Assembly (NCBI GenBank): GCA_947568835.1
Contig: OX387605.1
Coordinates: forward strand, 18,728,418-18,792,417
DNA length: 64,000 nt
Origin: Protonemura montana
Lineage: Eukaryota; Arthropoda; Insecta; Plecoptera; Nemouridae
Direction of reading: 5' to 3'
Translations under genes and position numbers: made by a program
In this document: positions 3,382 through 60,300 of the stretch, piece by piece
How positions within the stretch are numbered: the first letter of the stretch is position 1
Layout of the letters: each line of letters opens with the position of its first letter
The notes under the pieces: model-generated
Seen by the model: only the letters and a program-made list of their open reading frames with translations
Told to the model about the DNA's origin: nothing
The model's database searches: none

Positions 3382-5997
<2,616 letters not shown>

Positions 5998-45431: not shown

Positions 45432-46836
<1,405 letters not shown>

Positions 46837-47597
46837 ATTTTTATCGCCGATTACACTCACTAAATTACAATAATATTTGTTTTTATATGAAGGTTATTAT
46901 GCTATTCACTGGATCGCAATGTGCTCAGCAACGTCTATATGTCTTTGGTCTATATCAGCTGACTTGCATGGTTGCCACTACCCAGTACGCTAGAGTAGTA
47001 GGATTCCCTTAGTTTTTAATTCCAATTCAACAAGGAAAAGAATAAAAATAATCTTTGATCTGTAAAAATTAAAACAATTAAAAGTATTTTTTTTAATGGA
47101 ATGTGCATATTTTTCCTAAAATTGTAAATGTTCTTGACGTTCGGCTGTTTCTCTACTGGCAACCACTGGCAACTCTGCCATAAACCATATGATCGTACCC
47201 GATCGTATCCAAAGATAGTCTAGATAGTCTAGTCTGGAAATATTATTTGATACTGCGAATGAAAAAACTGGAAGGAAATGCTAGGTTGAAAAGGGCTGGT
47301 AAATTAATTGTTCTTGGGTTCTTTCTGTACCATGGTGGTATGTATTTTGTCAAGCCGAAACCCTTAAACTCCCAGGAAATAGTATAAAAATCAAACCAGG
47401 TAATGTGAATTTTTATCCTTTTTCGGTTTTGCTATCGAGGTTTGCACAAAAAAATCGAAATGTCAGTGATCTTTCTAGTTCCCTATCTACCTATCTATAG
47501 TCTTTGTTCCTGACCAACTCAAATTGTTTGTGCAGCTTAAGTGTGGAATAATAATCAAGTCATTTCTGCTCACTTTCAGTGAAATTGGAAATAAATT
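46837..47597. promoter_or_regulatory. Divergent region between AK6 and the microprotein transcript
   Basis: About 760 bp. A plausible non-coding first exon for the plus-strand transcript ends at a GTATGT donor near 47339, with an acceptor (ctttcag) just upstream of 47580. If so spliced, an ATG at about 47333 would read Met-Val-stop, a tiny upstream frame. No TATA box recognised. Confidence 0.4.
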
Positions 47598-47756
47598 ATG
47601 CGAATTAGGAGACCCAGAGGACTAACTAGCGGCCAAATATTATTTGCCACAGCATTGGGAGTGATTGGAGGTGTATATATCTGGAGACCCCTGCTGTTAA
47701 AGTTTAATAAAAACTCGGCAACATCAGAAGCAGAGTCTCCAAAACCATCAACATGA
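47598..47756 (+). CDS. PIGBOS1: PIGBOS1-like mitochondrial outer-membrane microprotein
   Basis: 52 residues in one exon: ATG 47598, stop TGA 47754-47756. A short basic head (MRIRRPRG) precedes the hydrophobic segment QILFATALGVIGGVYIWRPL and a polar tail ending SPKPST. Human PIGBOS1 (54 residues), a microprotein of the outer mitochondrial membrane that contacts ER CLCC1 and tunes the unfolded protein response, has the same plan: a basic start, a core of the type LLFATVLGIAGGVYI and a charged tail. The match over the core (LFAT.LG..GGVYI) is why I name it, from memory of the family and without a search. Its stop codon overlaps the start of the next frame as ATGA. An acceptor just upstream implies a 5' UTR intron. 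Confidence 0.75.
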   Translation: MRIRRPRGLTSGQILFATALGVIGGVYIWRPLLLKFNKNSATSEAESPKPST

Positions 47757-48061
47757 ATCAGAGGTGGTTTTTTGTATAACTATTGACAAATCTGTCAACC
47801 GTTTCGCCAAGTAACAACCAACTTGTATTCTGACGTTTTGCGAAACATTTCAGGGAGGTGTCGTCGCTAGGAAAGGTGTGGCGAAATGTACAAGGCAATC
47901 CCTTCTTACTATTTGCTGGAGCGGTTGGCTGCACTATGGGAGGCATGCTCTTCTACAAGGCTGTGTTACAGCCACGGATGAGAAAAAGCAACAGAGCAGA
48001 ATCTGAAGCGTTTGCCGAATATCTGTTTCAGAAAGAATTAAAAAGAACCGGCGATGTTTAA
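47753..48061 (+). CDS. Second membrane microprotein, start overlapping the PIGBOS1-like stop
   Basis: Proposed exons 47753-47763 (ATG AAT CAG AG, donor gtggtt) and 47854-48061, giving 72 residues that begin MNQREVSSLGKVW. The acceptor (acatttcag) is good and the donor is weaker than usual. A hydrophobic segment, PFLLFAGAVGCTMGGMLFY, is followed by KAVLQPRMRK and a charged tail ending KRTGDV. I do not recognise the family. The segment resembles the neighbouring PIGBOS1-like core (LFA.A.G...GG), and the 'FY....P.MR' part recalls SMIM20/MITRAC7, another inner-membrane microprotein; neither match is decisive. Within the second exon no ATG occurs before the hydrophobic segment, so the start must come from upstream. 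AATAAA is at 48082-48087, only 20 bp after the stop. Confidence 0.65.
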
Positions 48062-48081
48062 AAATAGGTGGCATCTTGTGA

Positions 48082-48087
48082 AATAAA
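48082..48087 (+). terminator. Polyadenylation signal of the microprotein transcript
   Basis: AATAAA 20 bp after the second microprotein stop codon, before the convergent UQCR11 coding end at 48194. One signal serves both reading frames, which supports a shared mRNA. Confidence 0.6.
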
Positions 48088-48125
48088 TACAGTTTTAGCT
48101 GATTAACAATTGATTTGTATCGATT

Positions 48126-48131
48126 TTTATT
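48126..48131 (-). terminator. Candidate polyadenylation signal of UQCR11
   Basis: TTTATT (AATAAA on the minus strand) 63 bp after the UQCR11 stop. It lies just past the plus-strand signal at 48082, so the two transcripts may overlap by a few tens of bases. Confidence 0.5.
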
Positions 48132-48193
48132 ATAGTTAACTACAATTTTATTTCTATAGAATTTTGTACAGAATATAATGTTGTCTACATGGA

Positions 48194-49286
48194 TTACTTT
48201 GGCTCTTCTGTCTTGAATTTACCATTGTAGAAAGGCATGTATTGCAGCACTAACTTCCAGTCGGTGAAGTAGAGAAGAGCCATCCCCCCTGTCAATCCAA
48301 ACGCAGAGAGTGTAGGGACCCTGAAAGCATTGCAGAAAAGCTCTAGTTATAATCTAAATAGTTTTAGATTTTTTTCTTAGGATTTATTGATCTTATTTTA
48401 AAATGACAGATTACGAGACTTACAACAACATTTTGCCTGTTACCTCGTTTATGTAAGCAAGGCAATATGCAAAACATTGAAAAGCCGGTGATCATACAAT
48501 CTGCCTTTATCTGTTAGTGAGTGATATTTCCTCCATTACTCTTTCTAATTATATTTGTATTTATAAGTTGTTATCAACAATTAGCTCCAAGAGTACTCTT
48601 GAATGTGAATAATTAACATGGTAAAACAACAATTATTATTGACTTTCACCAAGAGAGTGATCAACTTTAACAACCAAAACTGACTGGTAAAATCAATTTT
48701 GAGAGCATATGAAACATGCATAATCACCTTGATGCTACTCATATTTCGAGTAGTTCAGTTAAAATGTAATAAATTACGCTTCAAAGCGATAAAAGTGTGG
48801 TAATTTCTATAGCCTGATTTAACTACGTACGCATCTCTATGGTTACAGGAGAGAATCCACATTTGTAAAAAGAAATAAAAGCTCTCATTCTCCCAGCTTT
48901 AAAAGCAGGGCTTAAGTGTTTGTCACACTTGGGTCACACAATATTTCCAAACATATTTTGTTATGACCTTAATATAGATTAATGTTATATTTCAGCAAAT
49001 GTAGTTGGTTGGTAGCAAGCATTTTCCAAGATGCAAAATATCAGTAAGATTAATTCCAACCAGCAATCTAATCAGCAGGTCGGCTTCATACCACTTTTGG
49101 CCGTGAATATACTTTACTCTATATTATTTAGTGTTCAAAGTATATATGAAAAAAGCATTTGAAAGGTTAGTTCAAAGAAAACTGGACAAATAATTATTCA
49201 GATTATAACCATATCTACCATTGTCCAGCTTGCTCGATGTGCTTCTTGCCCAGAAGCCTGAGAGGTCCAGGTAATCTACCCGACAT
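48194..49286 (-). CDS. UQCR11: Cytochrome b-c1 complex subunit 10 (UQCR11/QCR10)
   Basis: Small single-helix subunit of respiratory complex III in the inner mitochondrial membrane. Two exons: 49219-49286 and 48194-48320, joined inside the Trp codon of QWVP, 64 residues. The start is [20 protein letters not shown]; a hydrophobic helix follows at about residues 24-42 ([18 protein letters not shown]), then [17 protein letters not shown] and the tail KTEEPK. The TDW..(I/V)L...P..NGKF signature and the size match the family. The first exon's start was fixed by phase and by family length. Head to head with BORCS8 and tail to tail with the microprotein transcript. The ~900 bp intron holds nothing recognised. 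Confidence 0.9.
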
Positions 49287-52324: not shown

Positions 52325-55300
52325 ATGGAGTCCCCGCATGGCTTCGTCGGTATGGACTTTCTGAAGAAAATTACCAATATTACGAAAAAACCAGAAACTT
52401 TTTTGGGGTAAGTATTTTAGTTCTGATAAAGGAAGTTCACTTATACATATTTTTTGTTATTGATGATTTTATAGTAATTTCATGAGAATCTGCGAAGTCT
52501 ATGCAATTTAAACATAACCTATAAAGTGACAACAAGGCTCTAAACCACTCCGTTAAACCAACGGTTAAACCATAGTTTTATCATATCATTATTCTATGGG
52601 TTAATCAATTTCCCTATGATTACATTTTTTTCCCCTGTTGTGTTTGTTTTAGTACTTGTTTTATGAAAGCTTAAATATTTGCTGGGAGAAGAGCTTCGCG
52701 CTGCTTTAATCCAATCACCAGTCATTTAATTTCAAGCAAAACTTAAACGAGGGCTGGAAGAAGGCCTGGTAGATATTGGTCTAGTTGAACTTTGAACAAG
52801 GGCTTACTCACAAAATCACCTTCGTGTTTTTAGCTGTTTGATGTTTAGTTCATTGTTTCAAGAAAGCATATTCGAACGGCACATAAGTGACCATCAATCT
52901 TTGTAAAGTCTAGCTCCGGCCCTATTTTTTTTTTTGGTAAAAACTTCTCCTAGACCTCGCCTTACAGTCAAGTTTGCGAAGTGCTTACTGTAGAATTATG
53001 ATCGATGTATTGAATGCTTTTGTTATTGTTGCAGGGTTCAGGAGAATGTTGCAAAAGAATTAACATCACTACTCAAGTTCGTGTATGACTACACCAAGAT
53101 AGAAGAACCAAGTCAAACTGTAAGCGAAGCTCTACCCGAACTTATTATTCAAGGTTTTGACGAAGAACAAATTTGGCAAGAGTTAGAATTGCAAAATGAC
53201 TTCAAAGTTAAGTCAATATTGGTTGATGTTGCAAAATTAACTATACAAAAGGAGAAACTAGCTTTTTCGCTTATAGCAGACGCAGATGAAGAAGAAGAGG
53301 AAGAAAAGGACGAAGGCAATGCCGAAGAATGGGAAAATGATGACTTGGGTGATGACGAGGAAAATGATGACTTAAGTGATAACAAGGAAATTGACGATGA
53401 CGAAACGTACGCTAATTACTTGAAAGGTAAAAATAAAAAAGATTTGGAGAATGCAGTCTTTAAAGCCAATACCAGCGTCCAAAAGAGGCCAAAAAAAACA
53501 TCTGTTGTAGATGACAGATTTTTTAAATTGGAAGAGATGAACAAATTTCTTGAACAGGAAGACAATAAAGATGCGACGTCTAAAAAGGATATTGAAGAAA
53601 GCGGTGACGAATTAGACTACAACAGTGATGATGTTGACCTTTTTGGAGATGTACCTGAGGACAAAGAAAGTCTACCTAAATATGCCGACTTCTTTTCTGC
53701 TCCTTGCAGTGATGAGGACACTGGTAATGATATTGACGCAAACAATTTTGAGAGTGAAAATAAGGATGGGGAAGAAATGGGTGAAGAAGATGATTTCGAA
53801 GGCATTGGCGAAGAAGATTTGGGCTCTGAATCTGAAAGTTTAGCTAACAAAAAGAAAAAGGTACGATTTGACTTATGTGATGACAATGGCGCTGAAAATG
53901 ATGACAGCGAGCCTCCAGCCCTCGAATCGAATGAGAATAAATCCGAATTTGAGATCAGCCAAGATCGGTTAAAGAACAAAATCAACCATCTTGAAATAGC
54001 AGCAATGTCAGAAAAGCCATGGCAATTGAAAGGAGAAGTAAGTTCCAAATTGCGTCCCGAAAATTCTTTACTAGAAGAGGTGGTTGACTTCCAAACGACA
54101 ACCAGGCCAGCACCAATCTTTACCGAAGAAACCACCATGACCTTGGAAAGTATTATCCTAAGTCGCATTAGAGCAAAAAAATTTAATGATGTCGTACGTC
54201 AAGTTAAAAATAAACCTATCAAAGAATCATACAAGAAAACATTGGTGTTAAATGAAGAAAAAAGCAAACAAGGCCTTGCAGACATTTATGAGCAAGACTA
54301 TAAAGCAAAACTCACAAGTGAACAAACAACGTCTGTAGAACACAATGTTGAAAGGGAAGATTTTAAAAAAATCCGCCAGGAGATGGCTTCACTGTTCACA
54401 AAACTTGACGCCCTGGCAAACTATCATTTCATGCCGAAACCTGCCATTCCAGAATTGAGGGTCATCACCAACGTTCCTGCTGTTAACATGGAAGAAGTGG
54501 CGCCTATTGCAACAACAAGCGCAAGTCTGTTGGCACCCGAGGAGATCAAAGGTTAGTAAGCATATATAAGTTAGCAACTATTGAGGCCAGTGGAGGAAAA
54601 ATCTGAACACGTGAAATCAAAGCTAAATTTCTCTTTTTGGTTTTGATTTGAAGAGCTGTTACTTCTACGTTGTCAGATTATATACTATATATATATATAT
54701 ATAAATTAAACTATAACTATATGATAACTATATTTAATAATTTAAAATTGTTTTGCATAAATTCAATTTAACTATCTGCTTCATGTCAGGGGCCGGCCAA
54801 GATTTTTCGCTTCTGATCCTCTCCGCTACTGTTGCCATCTATACGGATGGCACCAGAATTAATAGCTTTTCGTTTGAGGTTTTTTTGTGTGATCTTGGTT
54901 GTTTGGGTGCACATGCAACTAACCAAATTATCCTGTATTTCTTGTCAACTTACAAAATAGCAGACAGTTAGTGATTGTTTTAGCATGTTGACTGCAGTTA
55001 AGTTGCTTTTTTCATATATTTAATATTTATAAATTTATATATTGTTTTTTTATTTTTTTTACAATATCTGTGATATAATATCAAACTTGGCGCAAAATAC
55101 GCTTCTGGGCCCTGGTGGTGGGACAACAATAATAATTTTCCCATGATAGGAAGTGATATTTAATTGACAACATTGACAAAAGTAGAGCCGTTGCTGTACT
55201 TTGCCAGTTTAAGAAGCTCAAAAATATTCAGTTCAATGACTGTGATTATTCCAAATTCTAGCATATGCCTTCAACATATATTAACAACACATATTTTCAA

Positions 55301-57363: not shown

Positions 57364-60300
57364 TCAGAACATGATCGGCTTGTCGTGGCACCGCTCGATG
57401 ACGTACGAAGTGAAGCGCTTGAGGAACTTGGGGTATTCGCGTTTGTAGACTGCGCGAAGTACCGAGGCTGGGGCCCATCCGCCAGGGTTGACTATTACAA
57501 GCAATTGCCCACATTAGTTATTTTATTGTTTACGGCAGGGCAGCATTTAGAACATAACATGGAAGTTTGCGTGAATTGACGAGACATCTTTTCAACTATC
57601 ATTTAGTTGTGCTACCCCTTTCTTTACTCCTTTTCCAATTCACGGTACTAGGTTCACCAATTCACCATGTGAATCCTTTGTATTATTATTATTATTATTA
57701 TTTGTGGTGTTTAACGACGCACTGTTTTGACAACTGGCCCTGCGGCACTGGTCTAATGGCGTCGGTGAATGAGTGGATGATGATGAACCTAACCTAGCTT
57801 AGAAGGGAGGAGGGGAAACCCGGTGCCGGCACGTAGCCTACTCCTGTCGAAAAGCACCAAGGGGACCACCGGCTTCACGTCCCTTCCGAAGGACGGTACA
57901 ACTCGAACAGCAGGATTCCTCCACAAAACTATGCTGTCGAGAGGTTGATAAGCGAGGCGAATGAAGTTGCTGTACTAACTTTCATCCCTCCAACCTCTCT
58001 CCCGAACAGAACTGGTCATGTGTATAATGGTGACCCATTCAATACCTGACTTAGCGCAGTGTTGCTTAACTTCGGGGTTCTAACGAGAACCGGTGTTTCC
58101 AACACGCCAAACCGTTCGGTGAATCCTTTGTAGAAACCTTGGTAAGTTACACATGTCTCTTTTCTCCCCTTTTCAATAACTTTCAAATTTATAATGCAAA
58201 TAGGATGTCAAGAGGCTCAGTATTTAGCACGACTAAATATCCCCAGCAGAGACACTAAAAACTAACCGAAAAATAAATATTCTCTGCAAGAGCACCCCCT
58301 GGCGCCATTCTTTATCTCTGGTAGGTTGCGATTCCTATCTCTTTCCTTCTTCACCACACAAAAAAAAAGAATAACAAGAGATAAAACATGGCTGAAAAAA
58401 TGACCTAAAATTTCTGAAAGGAAATTCGATGCAGGTTTAGGAATATAGAATTAAAGAATTTCAACTGGGAAACACTAGTAATATCTTGAGTTCTAGCCCA
58501 AGCAATATTTAGATGAATAGGGAAATTTAGTAGCCCTTTACTTAGCATTCAAAACCCAGTTCGAATAGTTTTTCTTAAAACTAGTGCTAAGGATAAATCA
58601 AGTAGACATGAGTCTAAAAACCATCATAAGCTTAACATCACTCACCAACGGAACAGTAAGTGATTTTGCAGGTAATGTCATCCCGAGTGATCTCAGCTCC
58701 GTCTTTCGGTGGGTCGATGAATGTTTGGCAGACAAGGCAGACAGTAAGGTAGACTCGAACACACTTGCCAGTGTTGGCCTGCACACACAAAACACCATTT
58801 AATTGCTTCCTAACACAGCATTCTATGTGACTTGACTGAATCGTCGAGCAGTATAATACAAAACAAAAGGAATTACAAGTAACTTAAAATTGGTATTTCC
58901 ATTGATCAACACAGTAATCACTGCTATTTAGTATCATGATAAAAACATCGTAACCTTTATAATACTTTGAGATTGCAAACATTTGCCATTTTAATTGGTT
59001 GAAATCAGGTAATGTATTTAAATTATTACAAATAATCTTTATATGTATCAAATTATGGCCATTAACAGAAATGCAAAGTTAGTGCAATACTTTCTTTGAA
59101 ATATACACCGGCCGGTAACTCACCGGAAAGTCGACGCTCTCTGTCGAGTGGTTGCAGACAATCCATATGTCGTGGGCATCTTGGTCACGACTGTCGGGCA
59201 CTCGTCGCATGTGCGACCAGAAGAGAGCGTCGCGCTGTGATGCTGGCCAGATGCGCTTATGCACCTAAAATTCCAGTCACCCCAGGTTACCACAGTGATA
59301 TTTCCAGGACAATGCTCAGAAAATGGCCAATGCTCAGACTCCATGCCTTGTAGCTCTTATGGGTGAATGTTGGTGCACAGCTGTATGCTAGCTATTTTTA
59401 CAACATTGAAGAAAAAAAAAACTTATAGAATTTAATTTAATACAATGTAAGTTATTGCAATAGCACAACAGTAGCAAGGAACTGTAAATAATGCTTCCAG
59501 TTTTTTTCTCATTAGCTATATTTTTTTCTCTACCTATTGCAATTTTTCGACCAATCTCCTATGTAGTTAATTCTCCATTTATCTTTTTGTGGTATTTTGC
59601 TTAACATGTCTTATTCATTTTTTCATAATAGACATAATTCATAATCATAATCTACCTATACAGAAACCTGGAACATTATGGTGTTTCTGGTGTTACAAGA
59701 AATTGGATCGAATCGTATCTTTCCCACAGAAAACAACAGGTGAGGTTGGTAGGTAACGGATCATCCACCTGGGAAGTATCAAGACATGAAGTGCCACAGG
59801 AATCCATACTTGGCTCACTTTTGTTTGCAATCTTCGTAAATAATCTGACTCCTTCTCTAACCAACGACAAACTAAATCGTAGAATCATACAGTATGCCGA
59901 TGATACTAGTGCAACGGTTGAAAGCGGTAGCATCCTTCAACTAGATGACTAACTTTCTTTTAATGCTTGCTGACTAGAAAAATTGGTTTGGCCCGAATAA
60001 ATTGAAGCTAAACGAAGGGAAAACCTTTGTAGTGGCATTTACCCGAGTGAAAACGCGGAACTCCCAACAATGAACGCGTACTGGCAAAATGAAACGAAAT
60101 TTTTAGGGGTAACAGTAGATCAACACCTAAAATGGGAGGCACACATTAACGAGCTAGCAGGTAAACTGGCCAAGATCAGCTTTGCCCTCAGGAAGCTATC
60201 AAGCCAATCCAACTGAGCTACCCTCCGCATCGTCTACTTTCTGCAGTGTCAATCCCTCCTATCTTACGGACTCCTCTCCTGGGGTTAAGCTACTGCCAGT

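Follow-up and report, generated by a model that had tools for sequence, protein, structure and literature searches.

A candidate bicistronic gene for a PIGBOS1-like microprotein and a probable diverged paralogue in the insect Protonemura montana

The subject of this analysis is a locus at which two short hydrophobic reading frames overlap in the sequence ATGA. It lies within a 64,000-nucleotide stretch of the genome of Protonemura montana (Plecoptera), hereafter the window (contig OX387605.1, C3 in our searches, positions 18728418-18792417). The best explanation of the locus as a whole, to which we give slightly better than even confidence, is a bicistronic microprotein gene encoding PIGBOS1 together with a diverged tandem paralogue (Table 1). 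One promoter, situated in the interval common with a divergent kinase gene, would give rise to one mRNA, in which exon 47580-47763 holds the entire PIGBOS1-like frame (frame 1) and the last exon, which would begin at 47854 and end at a poly(A) site shortly past 48082, holds most of a second frame (frame 2). Frame 2 would borrow an ATG situated in the frame 1 stop codon. Its product would most likely be the diverged paralogue, to judge from a common LFA...G...GG membrane core, and would carry a longer, charged tail that is predicted to be helical. The second AUG would be reached most likely by leaky scanning past the first, with termination-reinitiation at the AUGA as a possible addition, and both proteins would be located in the outer membrane of mitochondria, where they might form homo- or heterodimers.

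By its profile match frame 1 is a PIGBOS1-family protein, an identity already proposed in the initial annotation. It matches PF23670 (PIGBOS1-like) with an E value of 5.7e-11 and 42.8 bits against a curated cut-off of 27, and the locus is the sole PF23670 match at E<=10 in the whole genome searched (258 Mb, 34 contigs). Human PIGBOS1 is a microprotein of the outer mitochondrial membrane and binds CLCC1. Its gene has two exons, the second of which contains the whole coding sequence (PMC6814811). The P. montana gene is like the human one in that frame 1 belongs to the same family by profile and has its coding sequence inside one exon. What sets it apart is a probable paralogue encoded by the same strand, as well as its position between kinase and UQCR11-like genes. 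A leader intron upstream of the PIGBOS1-like exon is suggested by its splice sites, the donor at 47400 ranking second of 82 and the acceptor of this intron first of 73 in the local region 46841-48200 (scored, like all splice sites here, with hand-entered weight matrices). A profile search of the genome for the CLCC1 family (PF05934) returned no match, but its controls were equally silent, and the result is hence uninformative.

The overlap is present in the sequence as initially annotated, frame 1 ending with a TGA at 47754-47756 that shares two nucleotides with an ATG at 47753-47755. Left unspliced, this ATG opens merely 8 codons, while joining 47763 to 47854 would put it in phase with 47854-48061. 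An intron of about 88 bp had been predicted at this place; its GT and AG ends do exist, as does the in-phase junction, and the length comes to 90 nt (47764-47853), with a CTGAC branch-like motif whose A lies 20 nt from the 3' end of the putative intron. We regard the splice sites of frame 2 as acceptable, not strong. Donor 47764 (GAG/GTGGTT, the slash marking the exon end) ranks fifth of 82 local GT sites and is equalled or beaten at 158 of the 3446 plus-strand GT sites in the window; acceptor 47854 ranks seventh of 73 locally and is matched or surpassed by 319 of the window's 3828 plus-strand AG sites. Between 46851 and 47853, 22 of 62 GT sites would supply exon 47854 with an in-frame ATG, and among these donor 47764 scores 1.83 and the next best 0.13. 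The latter comparison bears on the idea of an alternative transcript for the second exon, in which the PIGBOS1 exon is left out and a different first exon provides the ATG. A plausible leader exon for such a transcript exists, and its donor at 47400 could be joined to acceptor 47854 in place of 47580. However, when donor 47400 is joined to exon 47854, the frame is closed by a TAG at 47380 and no ATG follows that stop, and every other ATG-supplying donor of the interval apart from 47764 scores 0.13 or less, so we consider this alternative highly improbable.

Signals in the sequence suggest a single transcription unit for both frames, because neither AATAAA nor ATTAAA occurs across the 97 nt separating the frame 1 stop from the second exon and because no other well-scored donor would supply an ATG. 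The single AATAAA of the initial annotation stands for the part downstream of the frame 1 stop; further copies are found at 47590 and 47706, both ahead of this stop and the second of them inside frame 1, and an ATTAAA at 48037 is located inside frame 2. Given the usual 50-55-nt rule for decay, the frame 1 stop, 7 nt upstream of the predicted junction, would not provoke degradation of the spliced transcript.

How often such an arrangement might arise by chance was estimated from ATGA sites on both strands of 264 kb, comprising the window and 20 stretches of 10 kb, eight of them near the window. Out of 2366 sites, 27 can be joined by a 40-400 nt intron, spliced about as well as the target, to a frame of at least 60 amino acids, and four, the target among them, to a hydrophobic frame. 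Thresholds were set just under the target's own values, and these counts, which include the target, are therefore post hoc. With this reservation, the frame 2 arrangement appears to be more than chance.

The hydrophobic cores of the two proteins had been noted to look alike, an impression that survives measurement with most scoring matrices, PAM250 being the exception. Frames 1 and 2 align with a Smith-Waterman local score of 43 (BLOSUM62). This value was reached by 3 of 2000 membrane-preserving shuffles (2 of 2000 in a separate run) and by none of 436 other hydrophobic open reading frames (ORFs) of 50-110 amino acids aligned with the PIGBOS1-like frame; nor did any of 1317 hydrophobic ORFs of 40-150 amino acids score as high against either protein with BLOSUM62, 45 or 80. 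The pair was part of a panel of seven sequences: PIGBOS1, frame 2, a 42-amino acid frame further upstream, the UQCR11 exon, sloth1, sloth2 and the first-exon frame of SMIM20. The remaining 20 pairs were unremarkable, the lowest count being 112 of 2000 shuffles. The shuffle test does not fire easily, since the sloth1/sloth2 pair, proposed paralogues themselves, went undetected (1419 of 2000). The LFA codons lie 60 nt downstream of the acceptor in the first exon, provided that 47580 is the acceptor used there, and 55 nt downstream of it in the second, a near-equal spacing as exon duplication would give. The likeness of the cores seems to be beyond chance, exceeding what composition and hydrophobicity would produce (less clearly with PAM250), and we consider it probable, not proven, that frame 2 is a diverged tandem paralogue of PIGBOS1.

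Frame 2 is single-copy in the genome and has one hydrophobic segment, with a Kyte-Doolittle value of 1.51 over 19 residues compared to 1.55 in the PIGBOS1-like frame. An AlphaFold2 single-sequence model of 47855-48058 (frame 2 residues 5-72) consists chiefly of one long helix, spanning residues 16-65 of the modelled piece, with a mean predicted local distance difference test score of 77.5 and a predicted template modelling score of 0.40. A membrane helix followed by a helical tail would be expected to look like this, and nothing further is drawn from the model. Being short and having a glycine-rich membrane segment, frame 2 is also like PF15061 (DUF4538 in Pfam), which we take to be SMIM20, or MITRAC7. 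SMIM20, against which the initial annotation had suggested comparing the frame, was nonetheless ruled out: frame 2 is no member by profile, the genome's own PF15061 match is elsewhere, on contig C4 with 57 bits, and the likeness of frame 2 to SMIM20, taken over the first-exon frame of the latter, is non-significant (112 of 2000 shuffles). An identity with sloth1 or sloth2 was likewise ruled out, the matches to PF15114 and PF14990 above cut-off being found on contig C1 and the likeness being at chance.

As to how the second frame would be started, leaky scanning appears somewhat ahead of termination-reinitiation, and fits at least as well, because there is no AUG in any frame between the starts at 47598 and 47753, the second AUG has the better context (CAACATG, nearer the fly optimum, compared to AATTATG for the first) and no stable RNA structure lies ahead of the overlap. 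Such a structure was sought and rejected (z 0.56; 144 of 200 shuffles fold as well). The initial annotation had proposed a bicistronic mRNA translated by termination-reinitiation; of this, the one transcription unit is supported by sequence, but reinitiation is not established. That frame 2 is made mainly through coupled termination-reinitiation at the AUGA within a bicistronic gene seems decidedly unlikely to us. The stop/start overlap speaks for it, as do precedents in cellular mRNAs, namely five human transcripts and others (PMC5972666), and a UGGGA, given in that review as the core of the termination upstream ribosome-binding site, is present at 47656-47660, about 94 nt ahead of the frame 1 stop, a 5-base motif that means little alone. 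On the other side, the RNA structure of frame 1 is not unusual, the start context and the lack of an intervening AUG permit leaky scanning, and reinitiation following long ORFs is described as presumably very rare (PMC5972666). In the CASQ2 case the downstream product is about 82-fold less abundant, an example of low-efficiency reinitiation (PMC5972666).

A bicistronic PIGBOS1 gene would have parallels among known systems. The genome contains homologues of sloth1 (PF15114, 90.7 bits) and sloth2 (PF14990, 66.6 bits), known in human as SMIM4 and C12orf73, in tandem on contig C1 at about 32271670-32272190 (L030:1492-2012), with a putative 101-nt intron inside sloth1 that was chosen by eye. With this intron removed, the end of sloth1 (L030:1815-1817) is followed 21 nt later by the start of sloth2 (L030:1839), and the pair is a candidate for a second bicistronic microprotein gene in the same genome. 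In Drosophila, sloth1 and sloth2 are encoded by one transcript as two single-helix microproteins and proposed paralogues, the first start has a non-optimal Kozak sequence (ACACATG) and the second an optimal one (CAAAATG), and leaky scanning is supported by experiments with mutated reporters (PMC9681215). The PIGBOS1 locus would share with this system a proposed paralogue pair, a stop and a start that nearly touch, and a weaker first and better second context. It differs from it by family (PF23670 in place of PF15114 and PF14990), by a 4-nt overlap where the spacer is 5 nt in the fly (PMC9681215) and 21 nt in the C1 pair, and by the predicted intron just past the second start. Among human bicistronic transcripts, MIURF-MIEF1, PYURF-PIGY and SLC35A4 with STREMI also combine two proteins, one of them a microprotein, on one mRNA (PMC13303939). 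In contrast to the situation at PIGBOS1, the second product of the SLC35A4 transcript is a Golgi transporter and not a similar microprotein (PMC13303939). The word PIGBOS is absent from the main text of that paper.

Several observations weigh against the bicistronic gene or the kinship of its two products. Frame 2 has no significant match in Pfam or PDB, the only entries being weak ones, namely PDB chain 6s4q (E 0.17) and, in Pfam, Gram_pos_anchor (E 0.24, 11.8 bits, below the cut-off of 20). The PF23670 profile misses it, as frame 2 is neither listed at E<=10 nor found by the genome search, and for this reason we do not count it as a PIGBOS1 member, only as a probable diverged paralogue. Pattern matches for relatives in bacterial genomes and viral contigs numbered 78, 7 and 49, none of which was confirmed by tblastn, as expected. 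With PAM250, 4 of 1317 ORFs score as high against the PIGBOS1-like frame and 14 of 1317 against frame 2, and the 3 of 2000 shuffles, as the best result among 21 pairs, correspond to about 0.03 after correction. A DNA-level signal of exon duplication, sought by comparing the two exons, was rejected, no likeness being found (261 of 500 shuffles reach the score). Donor 47764 is middling. That frame 1 contains no AUG does not point to selection: the same holds for 12313 of 20000 synonymous recodings. At the C1 sloth locus two AUGs lie between the starts of sloth1 and sloth2, which makes the parallel in initiation with PIGBOS1 a loose one and leaky scanning less simple. Finally, codon usage fails to separate frame 2, or indeed PIGBOS1, from other ORFs: 1441 of 2310 score at least as high as the PIGBOS1-like frame, 383 as high as frame 2 and 370 as high as the UQCR11 exon. 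The training set comprised 3219 codons from 9 hand-picked frames of 17 long ones and two window exons, one of the training exons (4317-4709) later being without a significant Pfam match. Two test rows, for the ORF2 exon and the AK6 exon, were set aside because their coordinates were trimmed, the former also being out of frame. Codon usage was dropped as a measure of coding potential for want of power.

Lacking a significant family match, support from codon usage and a donor ranked better than fifth of 82, frame 2 might be an open stretch that occurs by chance, whether spliced or unspliced, in the 3' untranslated region of an ordinary monocistronic PIGBOS1 gene. Its resemblance to frame 1 would then be a coincidence of two glycine-rich membrane-like segments. 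The frequency of such frames also speaks for this: stop-to-stop frames of at least 72 amino acids make up 5 of 106 in 3 kb (including the target and the kinase exon), and 130 of 850 ATG frames of 40-100 amino acids in 528 strand-kb are hydrophobic. Yet not one of the 436 or the 1317 hydrophobic ORFs resembles PIGBOS1 to the same degree with three of the four matrices, the splice is in phase with one well-placed ATG, and the joint arrangement is seen at just 4 of 2366 ATGA sites, target included. We consider the monocistronic gene, and with it the coincidental resemblance, somewhat unlikely.

The surroundings of the proposed bicistronic gene are included in Table 1. The divergent neighbour matches AAA_18 with 41.9 bits (cut-off 29.4) over 46453-46686 and is presumably AK6-like; the convergent neighbour matches PF08997 with 65.8 bits over 48194-48346. 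The 42-amino acid hydrophobic frame upstream precedes the good donor at 47400. Frames like it occur about 0.36 times per strand-kb (190 in 528 strand-kb), and a tricistronic gene including it was rejected, the frame having no family, no significant PDB match and a likeness to the panel at chance.

Table 1. Features of the PIGBOS1 locus and its neighbours (window positions)
Feature	Position	Strand	Basis or remark
PIGBOS1-like microprotein (frame 1), 52 amino acids, single membrane helix	47598..47756	+	PF23670 match; TGA 47754-47756
ATGA overlap of frame 2 start and frame 1 stop	47753..47756	+	sequence
Frame 2, first coding piece, 11 nt	47753..47763	+	sole ATG of the open stretch 47711-47779 in that frame
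Putative GT-AG intron, 90 nt	47764..47853	+	site scores; branch-like motif
Frame 2, second coding piece	47854..48061	+	72 amino acids together with 47753-47763; TAA 48059-48061
AATAAA	48082..48087	+	only one between frame 1 stop and 48768 on the plus strand
Candidate 5'-leader intron	47400..47579	+	donor CAG/GTAATG, acceptor CTCACTTTCAG
Possible extra upstream frame, 42 amino acids, hydrophobic, chance level	47259..47387	+	
Divergent neighbour, initial exons of a gene for a P-loop nucleotide kinase	46453..46836	-	start 46836 read by eye
Convergent neighbour, exon for the ubiquinol-cytochrome c reductase 6.4 kDa subunit (UQCR11-like)	48194..48320	-	exon end read by eye

Elsewhere in the window the searches returned a 5S rRNA gene match on the minus strand at 58000-58120 (57.9 bits), Mpp10 at 52994-54553 (426 bits) and, at 885-1298, the C-terminal domain of a copper type II monooxygenase (80.6 bits). 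Contig C34, of 15,885 bases, carries COX1 by profile match; TGA stands for Trp in it, and at two positions where table 4 gives Arg, the invertebrate mitochondrial code (table 5) yields the expected Ser. With two further frames on the same strand read as ND2 and COX2, the order is presumably ND2, COX1, COX2, and code and order most likely indicate an invertebrate bilaterian with an insect-like gene arrangement. COX1-like copies are also found on contig C4 at 5760925-5762262 and 5776811-5777755, one of them with the same score as the C34 copy (455.5 bits), and represent either mitochondrial DNA recently inserted into the nuclear genome or an artefact of the assembly.

A further-reaching proposal would be an ancient gene for two proteins of which PIGBOS1 is one, the insect mRNA encoding PIGBOS1 and a diverged paralogue with which it forms heterodimers; this we think rather unlikely, and we are just as tentative about its corollary that the partner was hidden because it starts inside the PIGBOS1 stop codon and is interrupted by an intron four codons later. 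Our searches of open-licence papers found no description of a co-encoded PIGBOS1 partner, and in them the only match for PIGBOS together with bicistronic concerned another gene. In the paper characterising it, PIGBOS1 is said to be without paralogs or homologs (PMC6814811). Should the bicistronic gene be real, PIGBOS1 would gain a co-encoded relative that is a natural candidate for its partner. Frames of this type would easily escape annotation, with a start hidden in a stop codon and a first coding piece of 11 nt. In our best reading the PIGBOS1 locus would represent a further case of a known bicistronic microprotein layout, in another family, and if so it would stand beside sloth1/2 as a further insect example of two mitochondrial-type microproteins made from one mRNA.
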